A DNA stretch of 64,000 nucleotides from the NCBI RefSeq assembly GCF_016859125.1, contig NZ_CP069338.1, positions 4,589,501 to 4,653,500 on the forward strand. The letters run 5' to 3'. Origin of the DNA: Archangium violaceum. GTDB taxonomy: Bacteria; Myxococcota; Myxococcia; Myxococcales; Myxococcaceae. Both the position numbers and the translations under genes were made by a program. The notes under the pieces are model-generated. The model had not been told where the DNA came from, made no database searches, and was given only the letters and a program-made list of their open reading frames with translations. Shown here in pieces: positions 24,657 to 29,843 of the stretch. Numbering within the stretch: position 1 is the first letter of the stretch; each line of letters opens with the position of its first letter.

Positions 24657-25493
24657 ATGACCCGGATGCGCCAGGAGCTTCGCCGTGCCGCCGACGTGCT
24701 GCGTTCCGCCCAGGCCCTCCTCATCGGAGCGGGGGCCGGCATGGGCGTGGACTCGGGCCTGCCCGACTTCCGTGGCAACGAGGGCTTCTGGCGCGCCTAC
24801 CCCGCCTACGGGAAGCTCGGGCTCGATTTCTCCTCCCTGGCCAACCCCCAGTGGTTCGAGAGGGAGCCCGAGCTCGCCTGGGGGTTCTACGGCCATCGGC
24901 TCGGGCTGTACCGCGCGACGGCTCCCCACCCGGGCTTCGCGCTGCTGCGCTCCTGGGGCTCGCGCATGAAGCACGGCGCCTCCGTCTTCACCTCCAACGT
25001 CGACGGCCACTTCCAGAAGGCCGGGTTCCCGGAGGAGCGTCTCTTCGAAATCCACGGCTCCATCCACTTCGTGCAGTGTCTCGGCTCCTGCACGGACGTC
25101 GTTTCCGCCGATGCGTACTCCGTGGACGTGGACCCGGAGACCTTTCGCGCCAGGCCGCCGCTTCCCGTCTGCTCCCGCTGCGGCTCGCTCGTGCGGCCCA
25201 ACATCCTCATGTTCAACGACTGGGATTGGAACGACTCGCGCAGCCAGGCTCAGGAGCGGCGCCTCACGCGGTGGTTGGACGCGGTGGCGCCTGGCACGCT
25301 GGCCGTCGTCGAGTGCGGCGCGGGCACCGCCATCCCTTCCGTGCGGCGTTTCTGTGAGCGCATGGCCGCGAGCCGGGGCACGTTGATTCGCATCAACGTG
25401 CGCGAGCCCCAGGTTCCTACCGGCGGCATCAGTTTGCCCCTGCGGGCGCTGGAGGCTCTGCGGGGCATCGATGAGGAACTGGCCCGGGGGTGA
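24657..25493 (+). CDS. Sir2-family NAD-dependent protein deacylase
   Basis: The 278-residue protein shows GAGAGMGVDSGLPDFRG (24-40), TSNVDGHFQKAG (112-123; Asn114, Asp116) and catalytic His133 in EIHGS. Zinc-site cysteines are at 141, 145, 172 and 175, and VECGAGTAIPSVR is the late NAD loop. It belongs to the Sir2-like NAD-dependent deacylases, which remove acyl groups from lysine using NAD. The loop GMGVDSG instead of GISxESG is a variant seen in SIR2-like proteins, some of which act in defence, but no defence partner lies beside it. Two ATG (24657, 24666) are possible starts after gaggggagagg. Confidence 0.8.
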   Translation: MTRMRQELRRAADVLRSAQALLIGAGAGMGVDSGLPDFRGNEGFWRAYPAYGKLGLDFSSLANPQWFEREPELAWGFYGHRLGLYRATAPHPGFALLRSWGSRMKHGASVFTSNVDGHFQKAGFPEERLFEIHGSIHFVQCLGSCTDVVSADAYSVDVDPETFRARPPLPVCSRCGSLVRPNILMFNDWDWNDSRSQAQERRLTRWLDAVAPGTLAVVECGAGTAIPSVRRFCERMAASRGTLIRINVREPQVPTGGISLPLRALEALRGIDEELARG

Positions 25494-25507
25494 AGCCGGG
25501 GAACCGG

Positions 25508-25545
25508 ATACCCTCACCCCGACCCTCTCCCGGGGGGAGAGGGAG
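25508..25545. repeat. REP-like palindromic repeat, copy 6
   Basis: CCCTCACCCC, then CCCTCTCCC-gg-GGGGAGAGGG, lying between the convergent sir2 and ctaA genes directly at the ctaA stop. It may end both transcripts. Confidence 0.9.
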
Positions 25546-25548
25546 TTT

Positions 25549-26514
25549 TCAGGACAGGGAGAGCTCGGACTTCAGTTTTACGTCCGTTCTCGGTGCTCCC
25601 AGGGCGAGGCTCGCCGCGCTCAGCCTCACCAGGACGATCCACACCGCGTCCGCCAACAGCAGGTGCACCAGCTGCATCCACACCGGCGCCAGCAGCGCCA
25701 CGTTCACCATCCCCGCCACCAGTTGCAGCGCGTACAGCATGCCCAGCTGCATCGCCGACCTCCTCACCGCTGGCGACGGACGCTGCCTCGCCACCATCCC
25801 CGCCGAGAACACCACCAGCGCTCCCACCAGCACCGCCAGCACCGGGTGCAGTATCCGCAGCCGCAGCAGGATGTGCGCCGTGGGGGATACGTCCTGTCTC
25901 AGTCCCTCCGCCAGGCTCGTGGCCGGGTAGAGCGTGTCGCCCAGCGCGGCGATGGCCCCGCTCACCCCCAACGTCAGCAGCCCCACCACGCTCCCCACCA
26001 CCAGCCAGCCCGTCAGCCCCTGCCGCCGCCACGTCAGCCGCTCCCCGCCTCCCGCCCACCAGCACGTCAGCGTCATCGCGCCCACCAGCAGGAACGTGTT
26101 GATGAGGTGCGCCCCCATCCACCAGGCCCGCGCGATGGACTCGTTGTCCGCCACCATCTTGAAGAGCACCAGCCCCGCGCCCAGCGCCGCCTCCGTCACC
26201 ATGAAGACGAGCGAGAGTACCGCCCCCGTGCGCACCGGGTGCCCCTTCGCGTGGGCCTTCAGCCCCCACACACACAGCACCACCGCGAACACCATCACCA
26301 GCCCGCTCGTCAGCCGGTGCGTGTACTCGATGAGCGTCTGCACGCTCGGCGCGCGCGGCACCACCTCGCCATTGCACACCGGCCAGTGGTCTCCGCACCC
26401 CGCTCCCGAGCCCGTGGCTCGCACGTACGCGCCCCACAGCACCACCAGCAGCGAGAAGGCGAGGGTGAACCAGCTGAAGACGCGGTAGGCACGGGAGGAG
26501 GCGGAAGGACTCAT
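25549..26514 (-). CDS. ctaA: heme A synthase (CtaA/COX15)
   Basis: The 321-residue protein has eight hydrophobic helices in two four-helix halves. Heme-ligand histidines are present in both halves: His66 (YTHRL), His136 (AHLIN), His223 (LHPV) and His284 (VHLL). A Cys pair at 40 and 47 (GCGDHWPVC) lies in the first extracellular loop, as in bacterial CtaA. It oxidises the methyl group of heme O to make heme A for aa3-type cytochrome oxidases. No ctaB or oxidase gene is adjacent, so it stands alone here. It is divergent from the small RNA locus upstream. Confidence 0.92.
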   Translation of the reverse strand: MSPSASSRAYRVFSWFTLAFSLLVVLWGAYVRATGSGAGCGDHWPVCNGEVVPRAPSVQTLIEYTHRLTSGLVMVFAVVLCVWGLKAHAKGHPVRTGAVLSLVFMVTEAALGAGLVLFKMVADNESIARAWWMGAHLINTFLLVGAMTLTCWWAGGGERLTWRRQGLTGWLVVGSVVGLLTLGVSGAIAALGDTLYPATSLAEGLRQDVSPTAHILLRLRILHPVLAVLVGALVVFSAGMVARQRPSPAVRRSAMQLGMLYALQLVAGMVNVALLAPVWMQLVHLLLADAVWIVLVRLSAASLALGAPRTDVKLKSELSLS

Positions 26515-26628
26515 CGGATGGCTCCCTCCCTAACCTACTTCGACCCCGCCCGCCCCCCTGGTCCGACCTGCCCGCCTGCTCCTCCAACATCCATATCCAC
26601 CTGGGTGTCCAGGAACCCCCCCCTGCTT

Positions 26629-26652
26629 CCGTTGGATGCGCCGTTGGATATG
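26629..26652 (+). promoter_or_regulatory. tandem 12-bp repeat, candidate enhancer-binding site
   Basis: CCGTTGGATGCG and CCGTTGGATATG lie head to tail, 61-84 bases upstream of the -24 box at 26713. An inverted TCCAAC occurs at 26583-26588. Position and spacing fit an upstream activating sequence for a sigma-54 activator. Confidence 0.5.
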
Positions 26653-26712
26653 CCCGCCTGCTTTCGGATGGCCCTGGATGATTTCCAATTGGCCGTCCAA
26701 GGTCCGCTGACG

Positions 26713-26730
26713 TTGGCACGCCACCTGCTA
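26713..26730 (+). promoter_or_regulatory. sigma-54 promoter (-24/-12)
   Basis: TTGGCACGCCACCTGCTA has the GG at 26715-26716 and the GC at 26727-26728, separated by the required 10 bases. It matches TGGCAC-N5-TTGC at nearly every conserved position. It points right, away from ctaA, into a region without a plus-strand gene. Transcription should start near 26740. Confidence 0.75.
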
Positions 26731-26739
26731 TGTGTTCTC

Positions 26740-26894
26740 CCGGTAACGCTTTCCAGTTCGGGTGCCTCGGTGCCCGGAGCGCTGTGAGGGTCGGGGGCCC
26801 CCCCACCTCGGCCCGCGCGCGCATTTTTTCGCAGGTGTAGTCCACGCACCGCGGGTCGGGTTCGCCCCCTGTCCTGGCCCGCGGTGCTCTTTTC
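26740..26894 (+). ncRNA. pxr: sigma-54-driven small RNA, probable Pxr homologue
   Basis: Seen in the sequence: a sigma-54 promoter just upstream, no open frame with a start site, several GC-rich inverted repeats, a run of seven C at 26788-26794, and a factor-independent terminator at 26846-26894. The predicted RNA is about 150 nt. Known, from memory: Pxr of Myxococcus xanthus is a sigma-54-dependent small RNA that blocks fruiting-body development when nutrients are present. A mutation in a seven-C run of its first stem-loop restored development in strain PX. The match in promoter type, C7 run and neighbourhood of an enhancer-binding protein gene makes homology likely, but the alignment itself was not run. 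Confidence 0.6.
26846..26894 (+). terminator. rho-independent terminator of the small RNA
   Basis: GCACCGCGGG (26846-26855) pairs perfectly with CCCGCGGTGC (26878-26887) around a 22-base loop. CTCTTTTC follows. The T-run lies on the plus strand, so it serves the small RNA, not the convergent activator gene. Confidence 0.7.
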
Positions 26895-26918
26895 TCGCGG
26901 AGGCTCGCGGCTCCGGGC

Positions 26919-29843
<2,925 letters not shown>

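Follow-up and report, generated by a model that had tools for sequence, protein, structure and literature searches.

The region between a COX15/CtaA haem A synthase gene and the gene of a probable sigma-54 activator raises two questions: whether a small RNA is encoded there, and whether this RNA is Pxr, as the initial annotation of the locus had proposed. In two reports (PMC5568312, PMC5684412), Pxr is described as a myxobacterial small RNA that blocks fruiting, with PxrR/PxrK. This developmental RNA was found to stand at the centre of the myxobacterial literature retrieved. The locus was analysed within the window, which is the whole 64-kb stretch of DNA under study, within the 12.68-Mb genome (a single contig), and by comparison with related genomes. 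Our data indicate that the locus is very probably a conserved RNA gene under a sigma-54 activator. As judged from sequence comparison, its RNA forms a new family within a regulator type that is already known, and its activator is unusual.

Promoter and conserved structure of the probable RNA gene

The features observed at the locus were a sigma-54 promoter, upstream GGAT-type elements, three hairpins, a C7 loop and a terminator (Table 1).

Table 1. Positions in the window of the RNA gene, its putative control elements and the neighbouring genes.
Feature	Position	Strand	Evidence
COX15/CtaA haem A synthase gene, divergent neighbour	25549-26514	-	Pfam COX15-CtaA, 2.9e-38
Upstream element ATATCC, possible activator-binding site	26593-26598		conserved element
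Upstream element TTGGATA, possible activator-binding site	26644-26650		conserved element
Upstream element GGATGATTTCC, possible activator-binding site	26676-26686		conserved element
Sigma-54 promoter -24/-12, TTGGCACG-N5-TGCTA	26713-26730	+	11/12 consensus letters; same score in 35/35 judgeable activator genomes
Transcription start, predicted	about 26740	+	placed from the sigma-54 promoter
Hairpin A	26757-26778	+	fold; covariation, 5/9 pairs changed on both sides
Hairpin B with C-tract loop (C7 at 26798-26804)	26779-26822	+	covariation, 5/13 pairs changed on both sides
U run 3' of hairpin B	26824-26829	+	sequence; U-rich stretch at the equivalent place in relatives
Hairpin C with second C-rich loop UUCGCCCCCUGUCC and U-rich tail	26846-26893	+	15-pair stem from fold
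Probable activator gene, convergent	26919-29843	-	Pfam Sigma54_activat, 3.6e-64; predicted structure of residues 1-600; co-occurrence

The promoter was the sole site in the 64-kb window that scored 11/12 against the sigma-54 consensus. The score alone is weak evidence because 0.42 sites this good are expected by chance in a window of such composition (60 first-order simulations); it is the conservation of the site across 35 genomes that argues for a genuine promoter. Among the 33 genomes with an activator-adjacent site, GGATGATTTCC (or GGATGATGTCC, in 2 genomes) was located at -37 to -39 from TGGCA in 32, being absent from G008, while TTGGATA was located at -69 to -72 in 28 and ATATCC at -87 to -121 in 19.

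Folding of positions 26741 to 26894 gave a structure that was better than those of shuffled sequences (z -3.26, with 1/200 shuffles as good). In this fold, hairpin B contains one bulge and one mismatch, and the terminator hairpin at 26846-26887 has a 15-pair stem followed by TCTTTT. A short form of about 90 nt may end at the U run behind hairpin B, and a longer one of about 150 nt would be terminated by hairpin C with its U-rich tail. The promoter and hairpins A, B and C are retained in seven aligned sequences, and hairpin C with its loop is identical in 7/7 genomes of two genera save for one end letter of the stem. No Rfam family reached its gathering score in the window; the nine weak Rfam matches obtained at E 10 in 26400-27000, mostly to animal microRNAs and other eukaryotic RNAs, with one mycobacterial sRNA, were taken as chance.

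Several details that had been given in the initial annotation can be restated from these results. The near-perfect -24/-12 promoter is present at 26713-26730, with 11 of the 12 consensus letters. What had been called tandem upstream repeats are real as the conserved ATATCC, TTGGATA and GGATGATTTCC elements, but as tandem repeats they are imperfect. The run of exactly seven C is found in this genome, although the tract varies from C6 to C8 among relatives, and the terminator has a stem of 15 pairs rather than the 10 reported. The absence of a plus-strand gene needs qualifying as well, as mechanical plus-strand ORFs overlap the RNA gene (e.g. 25471-26787); these, however, run antisense through COX15.

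Comparison of a 338-bp region with 39 relatives at the DNA level gave strong matches in all five other searched genomes of the genus and in G008, and a shorter match in G015. The short matches L009 and L010 were dropped because the hairpins were not visible by eye. A first covariance search of 96 genomes of the family gave 20 matches. In 39 genomes of five genera, namely 35 judged activator genomes and four genomes of genus g11, a core of the RNA was recognized that consists of hairpin A, hairpin B (loop of C6 to C8) and a tail rich in U. G082, whose contig stops a short way past the activator gene, was for that reason omitted from this alignment. Of the 39 rows, 37 were distinct. In the two hairpins, 96.9% of the cells were paired, and 10/22 pairs had changed on both sides, with 78 such cells. 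The proportion of paired cells, the number of both-side pairs and the number of both-side cells were each reached by 0/500 shuffles. The covariation score was 0.417 versus 0.227 in the shuffles, 0/500 of which reached it, and was at most 0.140 when the pairing partners were slid, a control that, unlike the shuffles, takes account of the relatedness of the rows. Sliding left at most 53.9% of the cells paired. The number of further pair types was a weaker sign, matched by 20/500 shuffles. The six C columns in the loop of hairpin B were invariant in 39/39 rows, and the stems vary. A conserved RNA structure with a U-rich tail at its end was thereby found, and together with the conserved promoter and elements it supports, on comparative grounds, the proposal of a sigma-54-dependent small RNA gene.

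A covariance model built from the 39 core sequences (R3) was then applied with filters that lose weak matches. Under these filters 40/96 family genomes were matched, as were 40/145 genomes over the order, every one of them inside the family, and 56/96 family genomes had no match. Thirty-nine of the matches are the RNA of the locus. The match in G082 was rejected, since it reads as an unrelated, lone C7-loop terminator-like hairpin. This hairpin, with the loop GGTTCCCCCCCTCC, lies on the minus strand at L141:873-953, in a Myxococcus-group genome. The locus is also present in a genome that was deposited as M. xanthus AM003. As the RNA and the activator are absent from many genomes of the family, their function is not a general one.

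Co-occurrence with the probable activator gene

The predicted activator consists of an HTH-like N-terminal part, TPR-type repeats and a sigma-54 AAA+ domain; at its C-terminus, Pfam detected no HTH. The predicted structure of residues 1-600 (mean pLDDT 87) begins with three helices resembling an HTH, followed by about 24 TPR-type helices. The best Foldseek matches of this model were TPR proteins, with APC/C subunits first, followed by Rap, NprR and MalT domain III. This domain order, with the HTH-like and TPR parts at the N-terminus and no C-terminal HTH found, is unusual; remote relatives of the N-terminal part, with 30-37% identity, were seen in three MAGs.

The activator was present in 36/96 family genomes at E 1e-120, which comprised all the genomes of genera g1 (6/6), g4 (1/1), g17 (2/2) and g38 (27/27). 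When nine genomes from six further genera were tested, all four of g11 among them, no relative of its first 600 residues was found. The DNA behind the activator gene was read in all 36 activator genomes: a sigma-54 site lies close to the activator in 33/36, the contig ends in G082, and in G003 and G005 the site is about 1.5 kb distant. In these two genomes of the genus, at L063 and L066, an open frame of about 480 codons separates the activator gene from the RNA.

All 35 activator genomes that could be judged contained the RNA, an 11/12 sigma-54 site and at least one upstream element, which is the combination of -24/-12 promoter and conserved upstream elements by which a sigma-54-dependent small RNA would be recognized. 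In the four g11 genomes, the RNA has been kept without the activator, the best sigma-54 site scores 8/12, and no upstream element is present. At these g11 loci (L039, L040, L042 and L044), the core lies beside COX15 and the U run follows directly after hairpin B; a possible sigma-70-like site was noticed in g11 by eye and is not put forward as a promoter. Because the activator, the promoter and the elements co-occur, and the RNA can persist without them, the activator very probably drives the RNA. This pattern of joint presence is what direct control predicts, although the comparison covers few genera and the co-occurrence may represent few evolutionary events. The suggestion that the flanking activator controls the RNA is therefore supported by comparative evidence. 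That one genus lacks the activator together with the promoter and the upstream elements clearly predicts what controls the RNA.

Proposed mode of action and its alternatives

With a probability of roughly 0.6, the product of the locus is a small RNA of about 90-150 nt that acts in trans, is made from the activator-driven sigma-54 promoter and pairs with G-rich mRNA by its C-loops. The TPR domain of the activator would sense a cytoplasmic signal, its N-terminal HTH would bind the upstream elements, and the activator would open the sigma-54 promoter. Transcription would stop after hairpin B or, on read-through, after hairpin C. The C-tract loops would then pair with G-rich stretches of target mRNAs, e.g. 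ribosome-binding sites, as the Pxr loop may do. The C-tract loop is the best-kept feature of the RNA and probably pairs with G-rich mRNA sites, and the RNA may share some targets with Pxr. The locus would thus tie a TPR-type sensor to RNA-based control.

Small RNAs transcribed by sigma-54 under dedicated activators include Qrr (LuxO), GlmY (GlrR) and CrcZ (CbrB). Compared with these, the locus RNA would be similar in being produced on a signal through a sigma-54 activator, and would differ in its activator and targets. No description of the locus RNA was found in the literature searched, a search to which the 2020 work of Whitworth and Swain, reportedly a survey of M. xanthus non-coding RNAs, was external.

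In place of pairing with mRNA, the C-tract hairpins could titrate a protein, as do the sponge RNAs RsmZ and CrcZ. This is the main rival explanation because a second C-rich hairpin follows the first in g1, g4 and g17 (hairpin C) and in nine g38 genomes, where extra R3 matches were found directly downstream; a loop that is kept while the stems vary would also suit a protein ligand. However, other genomes have a single run of C6 or longer, and no candidate protein is available. A sponge is considered rather unlikely.

The trans-acting small RNA also has to be weighed against readings in which the neighbouring genes account for the conserved structure. The hairpins are located directly behind the 3' end of the convergent activator gene and could stop transcription from either side, so that they might be a terminator or 3' element of that gene with no separate RNA gene present. 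Against this stand the promoter and upstream elements, which keep a near-fixed spacing in 35 judged genomes, and the position of the RNA, which remains by COX15 in the 4 activator-less genomes as well as in the two genomes where a frame of about 480 codons intervenes. We consider such a 3' element improbable. Slightly less probable still is that the RNA mainly serves COX15. This gene is divergent from the RNA and lies 140-283 bases before the core in 39/39 genomes (tblastn), the activator-less genomes included, but the RNA is directed away from it. Moreover, pairing of the loop with the COX15 leader was better than 95% of shuffles in only 2/39 genomes with tblastn-placed starts (mean -19.1 vs -17.7 kcal/mol), and in 1/28 in a cruder run for which 28/39 leaders were placed. 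The pairing is at chance level, and the COX15 leader was not retained as a target of the C-loop.

Relation to Pxr and to other C-loop RNAs

The locus RNA shares with Pxr (RF01812) a promoter of the form TGGCAYG-N5-TGCT, a hairpin with a C-tract loop that ends in A-C, a GC-rich terminator with a U-rich tail, and a nearby sigma-54 activator gene. Both may also have long and short forms, which for the locus RNA would follow from its two predicted ends. With the first model built from the locus RNA (R1), Pxr copies scored 13.6-29.7 bits, owing to their C-loop hairpin and terminator. According to one report (PMC5684412), pxr follows pxrR in M. xanthus, and Pxr loses its function when a C of its SL1 loop is replaced by A or when the loop is lost. 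The direct targets of Pxr are described as largely unknown, with pxrA a likely one, in another (PMC11928866).

RF01812 matched the genome exactly five times, with 80.4 to 90.6 bits, and all of the matches were in a tandem array at contig positions 5,535,527-5,536,875, which is 0.92 Mb away. There was no match at gathering score in the window, and none in 26400-27000 even at E 10. The pxr array sits behind an NtrC-type gene with receiver, AAA+ and HTH_8 domains. Its five tandem copies (L024) include two equal-scoring pairs that have the same sequence over the compared stretch. A probe joined from the published M. xanthus Pxr primers gave strong matches in relatives and three near 5.536 Mb in this genome.

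A Pxr model was built from 25 copies (R2), with loci L019, L020, L021, L027, L029 and L030 and some array copies left out of the alignment. Its best scores around the locus were 6.0 and 4.5 bits, compared with 25 to 70 bits on eight Pxr-like loci that a pattern search had located in other genomes, where the score next in rank was 17.5, so the model is able to detect remote Pxr relatives. Conversely, the wider R3 model gave at most 15.8 bits (E 0.036) on five loci with Pxr. The SL1 loop GGUUCCCCCCCACC, present in 25/25 Pxr rows, is absent from the locus, which has GGGCCCCCCCACC, and the 5 occurrences of GGTTCCCCCCCNCC in the genome are all within the pxr array. The two RNAs, both of which this genome contains, differ in sequence, in hairpin order (an extra hairpin A precedes the C-loop in the locus RNA), in loop flanks and in locus. 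The locus is not behind pxrR, an NtrC-type response regulator gene, but between COX15 and an HTH-TPR-AAA+ activator.

As the genuine Pxr genes are located elsewhere in the genome, the locus RNA belongs to a different family. Orthology to Pxr was rejected on the RF01812 result, the R2 score, the loop, the neighbours and the type of activator, and a Pxr homologue controlling fruiting is the least probable reading of the locus. The resemblance recorded in the initial annotation is nevertheless genuine as regards the C-tract loop, which is common to both RNAs, while family membership fails; the role of master switch for fruiting does not transfer from Pxr to an RNA of another family. The C-loop hairpins of the two RNAs may reflect remote common descent. 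A second conserved C-loop RNA with its own activator in the Myxococcus group would allow the role of the C-tract as active element to be tested directly.

A sigma-54 promoter with C7 within 58 bases was found in 18/30 genomes, compared with 1/30 for a reversed control pattern. Inside the family, these places were mostly pxr loci. Outside it, six places were found in 5/12 genomes, and in 6/6 the fold is a long hairpin whose loop carries C7-C9. These RNAs (L178-L183, from other Myxococcales families) resemble the locus RNA in having a sigma-54 promoter followed by a long hairpin with a C-tract loop. Unlike it, all six are rated by R2 as remote Pxr relatives (25.4-33.7 bits), and R3 had no match on them at E 0.1, its three matches being at other positions; none of the six was called by Rfam at E 0.01. 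Based on the pattern and fold results, sigma-54 RNAs with a C-loop seem to be a design that recurs in the Myxococcales. More tentatively, there might be a class in this order of sigma-54-driven RNAs that act by a C6-C9 loop, of which Pxr and the locus RNA, with its own HTH-TPR activator, would be two members that answer different signals and have overlapping G-rich targets. If this were true, the 'Pxr regulon' would be common to two RNAs.

With the longer spacing between the sigma-54 promoter and C7 that the locus has, the only place matched in the own genome was the locus itself. Over 30 genomes this pattern gave 8 matches, 5 of which were the locus RNA and 3 of which were others (in G012, in G015 and a second one in G008), and the control gave 1 match. 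Among the loci from the other families, L183 is preceded by a gene whose product has receiver, AAA+ and Fis-type HTH domains.
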